A stretch of 64,000 bases of DNA from positions 7,877,501 through 7,941,500 of the forward strand of contig JAXDDX010000001.1 of assembly GCA_034670405.1 (NCBI GenBank). The letters run 5' to 3'. Position 1 is the stretch's first letter. Every line of letters begins with the position of its first letter. Source of the stretch: Hoplostethus atlanticus. Taxonomy: Eukaryota; Chordata; Actinopteri; Trachichthyiformes; Trachichthyidae. This document shows positions 4,819 to 61,771 of this stretch, in pieces. The notes beneath the pieces were generated by a model. It had not been told where the DNA came from. It worked only from the letters and a program-made list of their open reading frames with translations, and ran no database searches. The position numbers were made by a program, and so were the translations under genes.

Positions 4819-7217
4819 GACTTGGACTGTTAGCCAAATTTGAGACAAAGTCCATAGCCCTCCACTGGGTTATCAGGCATGCATCCATCTGTGGAAAACA
4901 TGGAGACTGTTCTCCCACACTGCACAGCCCACCCTTTATCTACAGATGGTACTACTGAGCAGGAATGTGACCTTTGATTTGGTTTCTCACACGGAATGAG
5001 AGCGTATGCTGCCCAATGAAAATTGGGAAAGGATTTGCTGGCCTCCCAAACCAGGAAAATGAGCACATGATTGTTTGCATGGCAAATATTGGTTTAATGC
5101 AATTTGAAAATTTAGGAGAGTGTCCAGTGTAAGTGTCTTCAAGTGAGGCCCATTTCACTAGATAAATGGGGGGAGCATCTTCCCATCATTACAAATGCAT
5201 GGCCTCTTCATCCAAGTAGTGTACAAGGACCTCTATAGCTGTAGAGAACAATGCCATCCTATACTAGGCAGTCAGCACACAAACAAATTTGTTGTGCATT
5301 TCTTTTCTACAACTACAAACACGAAAATTCAAGTTAAGGTGAATGCCTTAAATGTAATAAAATAAATGTCCATTCTCTCTATACAACAGCTCATGGCATC
5401 AGGATTTTTCCAAACTCTTGCCTAGACAAAACCACAGCTTCTGAGCTCTTTCTGGTGCCTCTAACATTTGCCCTTGTGCGACTCTCTGGCGTGAATAGTG
5501 GGGTTGTGTGGTAATGTTCTGAAGTGGAGCCTGGACTGGGTTGGTTACTTCTGCTCTGCTTCTTCACTTCTGAACCCTGACCACATAGCCAGCAGGCCGA
5601 GGGGGATTTGCGCATATCTGCACAGATGCTGGCCGAGTGAGCAGGGACAACGCTACATTGTTCTCGCCTTTCGTGCAGCGGGGCAGCCTCCTTGAGAGTA
5701 GCCATGGGGGCTAAGTGGGAAATGAACAGATCACTACCAGTTTGTCCTCTATTTTGGTTGGCAATGGCCCACCGGTGCTCCTTGTGCAGATATTATGTAC
5801 CATGCACATGCCAATTACATCATATTGTGAAACATCAGCAGACCACAGGTTTAAAGGGCACTGTAGGGAACTGATAGGTAGTAAATAACCCATAATGATT
5901 CTGACTATGGGAGTCTTGGTTAGAATAAGAAGGCTTCCCAAGTCACGACAAAAACAAATTTGTGGTTACTGTTACATAAGTAAGGAATGTATCCATGTAT
6001 ATTTTACGCAGGTGAGCCCCTGCTCTGCTCTGAGGGCCCCTGATGGAGGACTAACTGCATGGGTCTACAGGATGCCAGAGCACTCTTTTGCAGCTCTGCC
6101 AAGCAGGTAATTCACAAGCAGCAGCAGCATGAATAAAAGATAACGGGCCACAGCTGACTCCTTTATGCTGCATGTAATTTTACTCATTCCTCCAAGTGAA
6201 AGGCTTTTCCAAATTGAAGATTCTTGAAATATTTCAGTCTCACCCATCTTAAACCCTTAATGTGTCTTTGTTGGGCAGCAATAACAATGAGGTATGTTTC
6301 AGTGGACGTGAGCCAGAAGTGCAGAAATCTGGGGAAAATCTGCATTGTCTAATAAAAATACCTCAGTCAAAACATAAAACACAAGACCCAGTCTACTTCA
6401 AATATTGGCTATAATAATAAGTAGTGCTGTGTTTTTCTTGTCAAGATATTAATGTTTGCTTTTCAGTCAGAATGAAGAAACTACTAGCTTCTGAAAGCAG
6501 ATCCTGAATAAGTTGAGAAACCACAAGAGTGTCATTGAATGACATTCGAGGCCAGGGTGTATCACCAATCATCCCCATTTACTTTTCATTGACTTTTCAA
6601 CAATTTTGTAGGCTGGTATAATAAGTGTCTTCTTCTTCTGCTGGTGCTTGGGCATGTAATGGGACAATAGCTACCAGGAAGACCAAGTTCTTCGACCAAG
6701 TTTCACCGCAAACTACTACAGTTAACAGCCAAGCTAACTGTCATATAAGCAATGGTACAGAACGGCTGCAAGAGGACTAAGTCATGCAGGTACAATATCT
6801 ATGGGAAACAGGGTAGCCATGGTGGTCAGCAGCTACTGTGTGCAGGCCTGTGCAGAGATAGGTTTTCCATGTCAGTTGAGTGGCCACAGAGGAGCAGGAC
6901 TTATCAGGGAATGCAGACCTCCTGTGCCCTATCTGAATGGTGGCTAGAAGGAAACTGTTACTTGTTCCCCACTTTCATATGAAACATTACCCTTGCAGCA
7001 CGGGTATAACAAAGGTTTATGCCTATTAGTTTAGATCCTATGAGCATACTTTTGTCACTGCTGGTCTGAAGTCAATACCGTAGAAAAATGTTTCAGTGAT
7101 TTATGTGGCCTGAATAGGAATATAAGATTGTGCTTGTGTAACAATTTGTCTGTTGAAAAGAGAAAATAGTCGAGCTCAGCGAGGAAAAATGGATGGAAGA
7201 ATGAATGAGTTTTCTCA

Positions 7218-7520
<303 letters not shown>

Positions 7521-12252: not shown

Positions 12253-15081
12253 TGTGGTTGTTATCTAGCATTCATCTCTTACACAGGTTTGCAATCAGTG
12301 TGTCAGTCAGGCTGATGACTGCCTCTGTGCTTCAGGCCCACTTAGGGGCTGGCTCAGGAACAGGCTCTGTACCATCCTACAGTATGCATGACAGGACCTC
12401 TGCTGTCCCCATGATTCACACCGTGCACACAGCAGATACACTAGGACTTGTGCGAACATCAAACTGTACAGTGAGGTCTTAGACATGATGCATGCAACTA
12501 CTGTACAGCGCCATACTTGTCCTACTTGTCATATCACACTTCCCTACTCCGAATTTTGAAAAATGTGTTATGATTAACAAGTTACATTCTACTGAGTAAC
12601 TTCGAGTCAGCTGTCTGGTGGCAAACAATATAAAAAATAAATAAAACAAGTTCACTGCCTGTCCTACGCTGCACTCACGGCTCCTGAAGTTAATGTTTTG
12701 ATAGATTGTGCAATTACAGACCTTCTCAGCCAGTGCCACACTCTGTGCTATAAATCTTGAAAGGTTAACAGCCCTTCCAAAGCACTAGCAGTGATAATGC
12801 AGGGAGCCCCCGCTGTCCTCACACAACATCCCATATTGCCATATTATTTAATTAGCCCACTTAAGGCCTTCTTTCATTTTAATGCTATGAATACGGATAG
12901 CTAGCGGCAGAGCCGGGTAGATAAAGATTCAAATTGTCTCCTGACAATGGGGCCCATATGCTAATGGCTATTCCCCGTTGGCTAGGAGCACACCCCAGGG
13001 AGACGATACCGTGTGCTTCATGGCCCATGGAAAAATAAGATACACACACATACATCATATTACACCAAAGCTTTATTTTAGCACAGTGGCCTATTGTCAC
13101 AGCAGACTCTCTGCTGAGCCAGCTAAACCCAACTAAACACAAGCTGTAGTGCCTGTGCTCTGCTGATAAACTTTCTCACCAATGATACAGTGAGACATTT
13201 CAAATCTGATGCAAACACCAGACTTGGAGGAGAGACACATTAATAATAAGCGATGTCTCTCTCCACAGCTCCACTTTTCTGTAAAACAATACAGCAAAGT
13301 TTCTTCCCCCGCTCAGTGAGCAGACATGAATCATTTCAAGGGTTAGCTTGCTCACGTAGCAATTGGTGACACCCTGATTCACATCGTTTCCTTTCTTTTT
13401 TTTTTTCCTTCTGATGTCACAGGTCATTGCATACAGTGTAGATAACAGCATTGTGCCAGGAGCGCTACCTCCCCTGCCCTCCTGTTTGGATCCCACCCAA
13501 AGCCAGGTGTTATGCTGATAATTGGCCCATCGTGTAGATTTTTGTTTCTCACTTGGCTGAACTGCTAGCCTCACAGTAACAGTTAGAGACACAGTCAGAC
13601 TAGCGATGGGCTTGTACCATGCTATCATGTTATCACCCTCAGGAGAGGAAGAACAACCTCCATTAGCTTTCTGTGTGCACAGCAAAAAAACGTTGTTCCA
13701 CCTGTGAGGGAGTGCAAATGATATTTCGGAGGGGTGTGAACAACATTTATGCTATTTGGCCAGGCAAGACGGACACATCTTCATTGCTGGGTATTATTTA
13801 TCAAAGTGTGTACTCACTGTTTCTAAACTTAGCGCTCAACTCACAGGGTGTATACTGCGGCTAAAAAAGAAATAGAAACATTCTTCCTACTATAGATATC
13901 CAGGCCCGTTATTCTTGTTCCAGACAGACCGAGGCTGTTTTCTACAGTGTTTTGCTGTTTAGGAGTTTATATTTAACAGGAGCAGACAGAGTGAATTCCA
14001 GCCCTCTCCCTCTCTGTGGCTGGCCAGAGCCAGTCTAGCTGAGGCAGAGAAGGGTGCTGTGTGTCCTGCTGACCCACCCTGCAAATGAGAGGGTGCTGTG
14101 GTGCAGTGGCCGCTCCTAATTACTACCAAGCAGCTGCAAACACATAGGGCTATAGCGAGGGGCCCCGCCATGCTGCCTGGCTAGGGGACAAGCCCTGCAG
14201 TGTGGAGAGGCCACAGGCGGCCCACTTTGCTCCTCTCTACTCTCGGTTCACTCCCACGCCATGAGGCCCCCACTGCAGCCCAGTGCTCCTGCTGCCTCAT
14301 CAACTTCTCTGGCTGAAATTGCAGGGTGGCAGGGGAATCATGTCTGTAAATACGACTACACTGACAAAGAAATGTCATGGTCCCTGTTCAGCTGGCTGGG
14401 ACTTTGGGGAGGGAGGTTTGTCTGTTTAGATCCATGCACTTCATGACAGCTGCTGAACTCTGGTCCAAGGCAGGAAGGAGAAAAGAAAAATGTAACCTTC
14501 AGACAGGTACAGTGCAAACATTTTTCCAAATAGAGCCAAAATAAAGAGACTAAGCTAACTGAATTTGAGCTTATCAGTCCATATAATGGATTACATTTTG
14601 TTTGAATTTATTTGAATCAATCCAAAAATAATAATAAAAAGTCTACTGACTACTGGGGCTTAAATGCAGTCAGAGAAGATAACATGATTACTTACTTGTC
14701 TTGTTTTTATGGACTGTGTGCAAAACAGTTTAGATATTTTTTGGAATATAATAATAATATATGGAATATAAACCTGGTTTTCACTAAGCCTGCTTATCCA
14801 ATCCTTTATTCTTGTAATTCACCCTTTTATTTTTCTTTTGATTTCTAAAGCATATCAAATAATAATAGTGCATTAAATGAATTGTTTTCATTGGCTTGAC
14901 AACACTGCATGTGGGCGTTCACTGAGATAAAAGAAATGATTAGTTCATATAAAAATGATCCTAGACAGTCAAAACGTTGAGGCCCATCCTGTTTAGCCTT
15001 ATTGAAACCAGTAGGAGATCTGTTTTCCCCGGTGTGTGTAGAGAGGTGTTTGTGTGTGAGACAAACTCGGACAACACTGAC

Positions 15082-15135
15082 CTGCCTGTTCCTCTCATCC
15101 ATGATCCTGGTGATCTGTATCTTCTTCCGCCCCAT
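15082..15135 (-). CDS. mef2a: mef2 coding exon 1: start codon and first 18 residues of the MADS box
   Basis: The start codon is at 15135-15133 and the exon encodes MGRKKIQITRIMDERNRQ, the invariant N-terminus of MEF2 proteins, whose basic arm contacts the DNA minor groove. It ends with CAG at 15082, followed by the donor gtcagt. It joins in phase 0 to the exon at 7454. The bases before the ATG (CAGCC) give an acceptable Kozak context. An acceptor, tgtcag, lies just upstream, so the exon probably begins near 15157 with about 22 untranslated bases. The open frame continues into the intron only by chance. Confidence 0.97.
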
Positions 15136-15157
15136 GGCTGCGTCCTGTCCGGTCTCT
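15136..15157 (-). other. mef2a: mef2 5' untranslated part of the first coding exon
   Basis: Reading the minus strand, a T-rich tract followed by gaggtgtcag stands 22 bases before the start codon. This fits a 3' splice site at 15158-15159, with the exon starting at 15157. The position is inferred from the splice signal only. Confidence 0.6.
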
Positions 15158-15297
15158 CTGACACCTCAACAATATCAGAAAAACAACAAGCTTTCTTCCT
15201 TCACTCTCTTAGCACATCGTACAACACTCTCTCTTCTCTTGTTGGCTCTCTCGCTCTTCACTCTTCACTAGACCGCACCGCAATCTGCAGGAAGACA

Positions 15298-46231: not shown

Positions 46232-48696
46232 AGTGAAAGAGAGAGTGGGAGACAGAGAGGGCAGAGAGAGAGAGTAGTGCAGGGCAGGCGTTGCATTGAA
46301 ATAGCCTGTGTCACATGTTACCAATGGAGTAAGAGGGAAAAAAAACCACAACACAATATATATGGCACTAATCAGGCGACAAAAGAGTATCTGTTTGCGG
46401 AGCTTGTAACGAGTTGTATGAGGGGAAGGGGCTCGAGGAGGAGCGCTGGGAGTGAGATGAGGGAGGGTGGCAGCCATGCCCCTAGGTTGTTTATTACAAA
46501 TGCCACATCCAGGTGGGATTTGCAGAGTTGCACCCTAGCCAGCACTCATTCTCTCAGTGGAAAGAGCCTGAGGTGGAGGATGGTAAACACGGGCAGCTGT
46601 AGCACAAGCACAAACATCCCAGCGGGCACTGCTGCGAATTTTCATTGGAGAATCGGCCAGGGGGAAATACTGCATCGATAACCTCACCAAATCTTAGCGT
46701 TCAGTATACTGCTCCAAGTGACATAAAGCAAGCCCTACTGCCAACACAGTGCTGTGAAAGTGCAGCTTCATTCTAAGCAAGTTTATGGAGAACTTTGAGG
46801 CTACTTGAGAGCCCATTTTAATGCAGCACAGAAGACTTGTCTCAGTCTCAACACCTTGAGCCGTTCCTTCCTGCTTCATTTCATACCACGTTTAGCCCAC
46901 CAGCGCCAAGTGGGCTGAATAGAACCAGGCTATTAGAAGTCACAGGGAGGAAGTGTGTGATATGCTGCTCCAATTTCCCAAGCTCCATTTTTTCCCCCAG
47001 CAGCTGAAGAGATGTTCTGCTGTAATGAGTATCATGTGTTTAAAGCCGTTGCAAAGGCCCATTGTACCAATAACACCAGCAGCTCTATCACCAGCAGACC
47101 GCCACCTGGAAAACACATCCCTGACCTGTATTTGCAAAACTCACATGTGAGGACTGCAAATTCTTGATGCTCGTGGAGTTTACAGAGAAAGGGCTAAGAC
47201 TGTAAGAAGTAAGAAATGTGGTGAACAGACAAAGTGGCCTTAGATTGGTTCATTCTCTGACTGTTTTTCATTATTCTTAAACCCTTTCTCATTGCAGAGC
47301 TTTAATTGGGGTACAGCCCCTTTAATTCACGTGGTTAAATGAGAACCAGGCAACATCTTGTCTACATGGGAGTTGGTAATAAGACCATTCATTGATCTAG
47401 GCTTAATGTTATTGTTCCTGCTGTGCATACTGATGCATACATCCCATATTTGTTGTCAGAGCTGTTGAAAGGAGTGACACCGGGTATTGCTCAGTTTGCA
47501 GTGATGGAATATGACTTTGTATTGATGAGAATCGGTGAGATGAATGAATGTGATCCTTTTAGCAGTGCAAGGCAATACCAAATAGCAAAACCAATTAACA
47601 CTGGTTTTATCAAACAGTGTTACCAGACAGACACGTTGCTATGAATGTTAAGGCGGTTGGGTGCCTCTGTCTAGGTTATGCTTCTTTTTTTTTTTGTTAT
47701 GGACTAAACACAATATCTCAGCCCACTTTCAAGCCATGCCAAACTCCAAAATCCATCTGCTTTCTCATCTCTCTGGTTCCATGTGCATCCTGTTCAATCC
47801 ATATGTAACTCAGGATATGTCTCTCTCTTTCTCTCTTTGTTCCTTTGCCATTCACAAAATATCGATAAGACATTTGGTGGATTCTTCATTTCATCGGCGG
47901 ACCAAACATATGATGCTGATGTGGTTTGACTTTCACTGCTGGACAAAAGATTGTACTCTGAATCCTGATGAGGTAGAGTACAGAACAAATATGGTGGGAT
48001 AAATATATCCATATCTCTTCTATGCATCTGTGTATCAATGAATCCATCCGTTGTGCAGATGCCAGATTGCGTCATCTGAGGTGATAAAAGGTCTAGATGT
48101 TAAATTCCAGATGTAGAAATGTGTAGATATGATCGTTTTGTAACTTTGTAAGTCGTTTTTGTAAGTAGCTGAGCTGTGTACCGGCATACTTTGAAAGAAA
48201 ATCGAGGGGATACGGAGAAAAAAAAACGTATGGGAGAAAATAGAAGAACATAGAAGAAGAGAAAAAGTATGAATATGAGTACAGGGGGAAGGACAACATC
48301 CTCTGTTGCCTTTCCAGCTGATGTGTATGATGGGGGCCCCTTTGGTGAGCACTGTTGTCAGCCGAGACAAACTGCAGCTCCTGGGAGTGCCCCAGATCTG
48401 ACAGAATCCTCCCCCTCCATCAGTCACGTCATCTGAGTCAGTGAAGGAGTCTGCGCCCTGCTCGCGGTCACACTAACCAGGAGACACAAGCTGTTCCTCT
48501 CCAGGTGCTCATTAATGCACTTGTCCTTGATACCTCCACCATACAACAACACAAAGACAAACAGAGGCCTGCCGTGTTCTAATTACACTTACACGCGCAC
48601 ACACAAGGATATGCATCATGCATTTCACTAAGAGACTTGTAAATGTCAAACAATGGCAGATGCCCCGTTACTTCCCCCCTCCTGCTGTTGCTGCCG

Positions 48697-59797: not shown

Positions 59798-59859
59798 ATG
59801 GACGATTACCATCAAGCATTGACAAAAACACGATCCAATTCCTCCGATCTGGCCGAATC
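59798..59859 (+). CDS. ttc23: ttc23 exon 1 (residues 1-20)
   Basis: The exon starts with ATG at 59798 and encodes MDDYHQALTKTRSNSSDLAE plus two bases of the next codon. The donor is gtacgt at 59860. The phase-2 end fits exon 2, and reading on without splicing meets a stop within about a dozen codons. The N-terminus is not conserved, so the start rests on the ATG, the splice phase and the promoter 60 bases upstream. Confidence 0.75.
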
Positions 59860-59966: not shown

Positions 59967-60201
59967 AAAAAGTAATGTAGGTGTTGATGATGATGATGAC
60001 TGTGCTATTGCTAATTTTTGTAGATCCACTGAAAGTACAGGAAGCACTAGTGGGGCCATAGGTGCATCTTCTGTCTGTGCTGCAGATGTGGTCAGTCCTT
60101 CACAAACAGGATATCCCGGGAAGGAATCTGTTCTAATGCCACCTGAGGAAAAGCTCAAACATTTTGACAGCCGAGCCCAAGCCCTGGCAGACAACCAGCT
60201 G
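59967..60201 (+). CDS. ttc23: ttc23 exon 2 (residues 21-99)
   Basis: The exon begins after attcag and ends before gtgggt, entering at phase 2 and leaving at phase 0. It encodes a low-complexity acidic and Ser/Thr/Gly-rich stretch, including five consecutive Asp at residues 28-32 and a STGSTSG segment. It ends with the conserved MPPEEKLKHFDSRAQALADN segment, which corresponds to the human TTC23 PPREKL region just before the first helical repeat. The intron before it is only about 107 bases. Confidence 0.85.
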
Positions 60202-60329
60202 GTGGGTAAAGGTTGATTGATAAAATAATATAGGATTCACATACTTATATTACTAGTTTTGCAGCTACAATGATGCTCAGACATGTTTGCACAACTAGTC
60301 CTGCAGAATTTTTGTCTTGTTTACAAGGT

Positions 60330-60624: not shown

Positions 60625-60748
60625 TTTGATGCTTGCATCCAGGACCTGGTACGCTGTGTGGCCCTGACTAGGCTGGTGTATGGAGAGGGACATCTGAAAT
60701 TGGCCCAGGCCCATGCCAGGCTGGCAAAAGCATACCTCCAGTTTAAAG
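60625..60748 (+). CDS. ttc23: ttc23 exon 3: first TPR-like repeat (residues 100-140)
   Basis: This is the best conserved exon. It follows tctacacag and encodes QDLVRCVALTRLVYGEGHLK, then an LAQAHARLAKAYLQFKG helix, ending in a split Gly codon before gtaatt. The A-x-x-x-L-A-x-x-Y pattern is that of a TPR second helix. The match to human TTC23 (VRCVALTR, then KLAEAH and a YLQ-KG ending) is clear, whereas TTC23L differs at most of these positions. Confidence 0.93.
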
Positions 60749-61346
60749 GTAATTTCACAAAGATAATACTGTGAGAAAATCCTTCATTTTCAGGAAACTA
60801 TCATTCAGGTCAGAAATGCAAAGCATTTTGGAGTTTTTGTGACCGGTGCACCAGCTTACTATTTGGCCTATTTCACCCCTGTTACTTGCCTCATGTTGCT
60901 TTGAAAACTCATATAAAAGTGTTCAGACCTATTTTAATAATAATAGTAATAAACAGCATGAAAAGAGAGGGATTGAATAAATAAAACAAGGTTTTAAACA
61001 AGCAAGTGAAGAAGAAAAATACACAACACAGGTGCAAGAAAAAAACAAATGTAAGATAAGACAACAAAAATAAAAGTGCCAATTATAAAAAGGCTTGTTG
61101 AAAAAACTGACACATACTGCTAATTGGCAATCAACTTAATATAACTCACCTGTGTAGCTGCTGTTCTAATTGTGCTTTAATTACTTAAAACCTACTCATT
61201 TTGCATGTGGTGTTTTCGTTATTCTTCAAATACTAGCTAATAAAAGGATTGTTGTGGGTGAGTAATACTAATGTTAGCCTGACGTTCAGATTTAACGGTA
61301 ACAAACGGTTAAATTCTAACTCCGAGTCGGTCCGTTGCTCCTCCAG

Positions 61347-61503
61347 GCTGGGGTGTGCAGGCCCAGGAGCACTCAGCGCTGGCCAGAGAGCTGCTGCCCT
61401 TCTGCTCCCCAAACTTCAGCGGCAGAGATGAAAGGCTCCAGGTCCTCACATGTCTCCTCAGCATACATCTCACACAGGGAGGCGCTGCACTGCTCACAGC
61501 CAA
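61347..61503 (+). CDS. ttc23: ttc23 exon 4 (residues 141-192), ends at an AT-AC intron
   Basis: The acceptor ctccag precedes 61347. The exon encodes WGVQAQEHSALARELLPFCS and continues to LTQGGAALLTA, aligning with the human TTC23 segment that has LQAKQHAEKAR and then a QALLSLQ motif. No usable GT donor follows the end of this homology. The sequence that does follow is ATATCCTTC, the U12-type AT-AC donor. Ending the exon at 61503 leaves two bases (AA) of a split codon, which the next exon completes exactly. Confidence 0.85.
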
Positions 61504-61645
61504 ATATCCTTCTGGGAGAGGAGTCATATCACGGTTAAGAGTTGCCATGACATGACTGACTGTAAAGGTTTGACTGAATGAATGCCAGTTATTTTGAGGG
61601 TTGCATTTCATATAATAAAATAATGCCCTTGACTCTTGACCCAAC
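61504..61645 (+). other. ttc23: U12-type (minor spliceosome) AT-AC intron in ttc23
   Basis: This 142-base intron begins ATATCCTTC, matching the U12 5' splice site consensus (ATATCCTTT) at eight of nine positions. It contains GCCCTTGAC at 61625-61633, matching the U12 branch consensus TTCCTTRAC at seven of nine. The branch adenosine at 61632 lies 13 bases before the terminal AC, inside the usual short window for this class. Splicing here joins AA to T, giving Asn, and continues as LEEAE in frame. Confidence 0.85.
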
Positions 61646-61771
61646 TCTTGAGGAAGCAGAGTCCTGTTATCTGAAGGCAGAGCAAATACCGGAGGAGCTT
61701 CATCAACAGGGCGGCATCAACGAGGAAGAGAAGATGAAGACTAAGCTGGAAATATCCACTTGTCTATCCAG
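61646..61771 (+). CDS. ttc23: ttc23 exon 5 (residues 193-234)
   Basis: The exon begins after cccaac, the AC acceptor of the U12-type intron, and encodes LEEAESCYLKAEQIPEELHQ followed by a charged helix ending in TKLEISTCLS. The EA(S/E)-x-x-LxKAE pattern matches the human TTC23 segment after its QALLSLQ motif. The donor gtactg begins at 61772 with phase 2. All three borders agree in phase with the neighbouring exons. Confidence 0.88.

Follow-up and report, generated by a model that had tools for sequence, protein, structure and literature searches.

U12-type introns have the 5' splice site consensus RTATCCTT and the branch consensus TTCCTTRAC; ATATCCTT in the donor is recognized by U11 and then by U6atac, and U12 pairs with the CCTTGAC core, leaving the branch A bulged. 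TTC23 is a cilium-linked protein whose human gene is reported to contain an intron of this class. The conserved 5' splice site has a defining role for U12-type introns, and their optimum distance from branch to 3' splice site is 11–13 nt (PMC3584512). AT-AC introns account for 22% of the U12-type introns in zebrafish, 26% in human and 12% in each of Tetraodon and Takifugu, and the share is 12–26% in 12 of the 13 vertebrates tabulated, with Xenopus at 8% (PMC7367187); their rarity among minor-class introns, as put forward in the original prediction for the locus described here, was therefore overstated. In human cells, depletion of CENATAC, on which A-type minor introns depend, is reported to affect 92% of them (PMC8280824). 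TTC23 is listed among "well-characterised model minor introns" in PMC12332006, which describes retention of the human TTC23 minor intron after RNPC3 knockdown in A549 cells and very similar results for PDCD7. Among the papers listed in a literature search, none besides this one concerned TTC23 and minor splicing (supplementary tables, the usual place of minor-intron lists, lay outside the search), and found no report in which TTC23L, TTC23 and EFCAB7 are treated together.

The window analyzed here is a stretch of 64,000 nucleotides from Hoplostethus atlanticus (G000:C1:7877501-7941500), and the genome searched comprises 632.8 Mb in 1161 contigs. Five exons of a ttc23 gene are predicted on the forward strand close to the end of the window. 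The coding part of exon 1 (59798–59859) begins at an inferred ATG in an open frame and is followed by the donor GTACGT; exon 2 (60024–60201, with an alternative end at 60204) is followed by GTGGGT in the gene model; exon 3 (60625–60748) follows the acceptor ACACAG, encodes a segment beginning FDACIQDLVRCVALTR and is placed by a tblastn match that reaches upstream of 60643. Exon 4 (61347–61503) ends with GCC AA in phase 2, and exon 5 (61646–61771) is followed by the donor GTACTG, the gene continuing past the window. An early model in which exon 3 starts at 60643 supplied the protein queries for the comparisons with structures, Pfam, human TTC23 and viral_contigs. The product has 37% identity to human TTC23 (a provisional reference sequence) over 156 residues, and tblastn with the same reference located four more TTC23-like stretches downstream of the window (locus L005, 2035–2211, 2885–3013, 3286–3489 and 5381–5461), with 33–59% identity and E values of 1.1e-5 or better, of which the last runs to a stop after AVDMLAR. 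Residues 251–288 of the human protein have no match in this downstream locus; a full-length ttc23 is nevertheless likely.

Together with a MEF2-type MADS exon upstream, these similarities indicate that the name ttc23 given to the gene in the original prediction stands. The MADS exon (7215–7520, minus strand) is assigned to SRF-TF by Pfam; a second exon of MEF2 type on the same strand (14845–15165) reads MGRKKIQITRIMDERNRQ by eye and has no Pfam match. The gene of the first exon is taken to be mef2a; TTC23 and MEF2A are neighbors in the human genome. Searches with the ttc23 protein were uninformative in other respects. In Pfam, TPR_12 reached 15.6 bits against a cut-off of 30.1 and RecD_N was also below its cut-off; among solved structures there were nine weak matches (E values of 0.026 to 0.29), all to DNA ligases and none to a TTC23; and no relatives were confirmed from 13 pattern matches in viral_contigs. 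The five best candidates scored in the fish's own genome correspond to exons 1–5 and include no second ttc23 copy or paralogue (ttc23l), in a search that may miss a distant paralogue. A pseudogene or a wrong assembly, in which the splice signals discussed below would be relics, is extremely improbable: nothing was found for it, although human residues 251–288 are unmatched downstream, and against it the five exons join without a stop, the four downstream stretches are open and a second copy is absent from the candidates scored.

An intron is needed after exon 4 because the frame that reads through it, open from 61313 to 61555, ends in a stop at 61555. When 61503 is joined to 61646, the frame stays open and reads ALLTA-N-LEEAE, with the intron splitting the codon AA|T in phase 2 and exon 5 starting at LEEAE. 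The original prediction held that this is the sole junction that keeps the frame open and restores the family alignment, which is overstated as regards the open frame. Among the 44 open-frame junctions with GT-AG, GC-AG, AT-AC, GT-AC or AT-AG ends, the AT-AC pair 61504–61645 has the highest alignment score against the provisional human TTC23 reference (78, with the runner-up at 70). Many junctions are open, among them 22 of the 81 GT-AG or GC-AG pairs examined and 2460 of 10363 with any termini, and ten of these 2460 outscore the AT-AC pair (79 to 89, against the same reference). All ten are likewise 142 nt long and are displaced from it by between 1 and 11 bases; AT-TC, TC-CT and GG-AG are among their termini, and none has a U12 donor at its start. 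One of them is the GG-AG pair 61515–61656; GG-AG ends have been reported for a small number of U12-type introns (PMC2831892), but this pair starts with GGAGAGGAG, which is no U12 donor, and it was rejected. An AT-AA pair (61506–61644) that ties with the AT-AC junction in alignment score was also rejected, since its first bases, ATCCTTCT, are not in register with the U12 donor. Protein alignment alone thus leaves a span of about eleven bases for the predicted junction; the exact base, hence the putative AT-AC ends, is chosen by splice signals and not by the protein.

Conventional borders do not offer a convincing alternative. The donors of the 22 open GT-AG or GC-AG pairs score between -14.8 and 0.84 with a provisional U2 matrix, and the other ttc23 donors in the window score 2.63, 7.7, 8.23 and 3.9 with the same matrix. 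A U2-type GT-AG intron with other borders, for example 61534–61588, would be open in frame and give exons 4 and 5 a combined length of 122 residues, versus 93, but it would be only 55 nt long, its donor scores just 0.84, and the additional ~29 residues are, judging from the lengths, absent from the provisional human protein sequence. It would also leave a U12 donor and a branch site unexplained, and we regard it as very unlikely.

These signals lie in the interval from 61504 to 61645, at the positions assigned to them in the original prediction. The 5' splice site ATATCCTTC (61504–61512) matches the U12-type donor consensus RTATCCTT. The sequence CCCTTGAC (61626–61633) provides the U12-type branch sequence, although the nine bases GCCCTTGAC deviate from the branch consensus TTCCTTRAC at the first two. 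Its branch A, at 61632, is 13 nt from the end of the intron at 61645, inside the published optimum, and the 3' splice site is the terminal AC (61644–61645), so that AT-AC termini join an open frame. Units of CTTGAC and CTCTTGA are repeated at the intron end (CCCTTGACTCTTGACCCAACTCTTGAGG, 61626–61653) and give rise to tandem AC ends that are 12 nt apart and in frame (61633 and 61645). Use of the same donor with the upstream AC at 61633, by itself or as an alternative, would add four residues (ALLTANLDPTLEEAE). The frame of 61504–61633 is open and two CTTGAC copies adjoin at the intron end; by eye, however, there is nothing branch-like 10–16 nt upstream of this AC, and the alignment score is 64 versus 78, making such an end hardly probable. 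The interval 61504–61645 is almost certainly intron 4 of ttc23, a 142-nt intron on the forward strand that has AT-AC ends and belongs to the U12 (minor) class. Its borders, class and subtype, as originally proposed, are borne out by the U12-type donor, the core branch sequence at an optimal distance, the terminal AC and the minor intron reported for human TTC23, very probably in the same stretch.

The background frequency of such signals was examined in the window. The forward strand has a single copy of ATATCCTT, and the reverse strand has six. The combination of this donor with CCTTRAC and an AC at 9–17 nt, in a total length of 60–1000, is found once on the forward strand, at ttc23 intron 4, and twice on the reverse. 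The two reverse-strand combinations, at 48612–47635 and 24496–24012, are outside any recognized gene and are taken as chance occurrences. In 300 first-order simulations of the window, the expectation per strand was 1.22 donors and 0.06 combinations; the real background exceeds the simulated one, which the simulations therefore understate, and the signal combination by itself would not prove an intron. The strong point is that the signals fall exactly where the gene requires a gap: in simulations of the required 147-nt interval, both signals were present in 6 of 200000 sequences with the composition of the interval and in 4 of 200000 with that of the window.

The same genome contains genes for the minor-spliceosome snRNAs, all with scores above the Rfam cut-offs: one for U12 (122.6 bits), one for U11 (112.7 bits), two U4atac loci (94.6 and 87 bits; L003, G000:C208:460364-460493, and L004, C92:999701-999827) and two U6atac loci (130.5 and 68.2 bits; L013, C38:3916052-3916179, and L014, C2:14149290-14149412), of which the lower-scoring may be a diverged copy. 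The presence of the minor spliceosome in this fish is thus documented at the level of its snRNA genes; the window gave no Rfam matches at gathering thresholds. When pairing was tested with U11 and U12 from this same genome, the donor and branch site of intron 4 did not stand out. U12 forms 6 of 8 pairs at CCCTTGAC, which is equaled at three other places in the intron, and the duplex energy of the U11 5' end is -4.0 at the donor as compared with -10.7 elsewhere in the intron. In the splicing pathway established for this class, U11 and then U6atac would bind at ATATCCTT, and U12 would pair with the CCTTGAC core, bulging the branch A. The two parts of the codon AA|T would then be joined by the minor spliceosome, allowing the TTC23 protein to be read through. 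By analogy with the human gene, removal of intron 4 would depend on the minor spliceosome.

For annotation, a gene finder restricted to GT-AG introns would probably break ttc23 or misjoin its exons 4 and 5. Intron 4 is a likely example of a minor intron kept from fish to human, and its A-type subtype leads to a testable prediction of CENATAC dependence for ttc23. A further proposal is improbable: the AT-AC subtype would make the output of ttc23 in this fish sensitive to the minor spliceosome and CENATAC, and the amount of TTC23 protein would be set by regulated intron 4 retention or by splicing to the tandem AC at 61633.

The closest described system is the human TTC23 minor intron of PMC12332006, which is in the same gene. 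Translation of the RT-PCR primers given there yields ARQILA and SKELLQC; in the alignment with the fish gene, the former falls on ARELLP of exon 4 and the latter on PEELHQQ of exon 5. Because the human primers are located in homologues of parts of these two exons, the stretch that holds intron 4 very probably also contains the human minor intron, although the primers could in principle flank more than one human intron. Most likely, intron 4 is orthologous to the human minor intron of that report, with exact positional identity predicted; it is a supported intron but, since a minor intron in TTC23 is known from human, not a new one. As compared with vertebrate U12-type AT-AC introns in general (PMC7367187, PMC2831892, PMC3584512), it has the ATATCCTT donor, the CCTTRAC core and the 13-nt distance to AC in common with them, and shows no essential difference.
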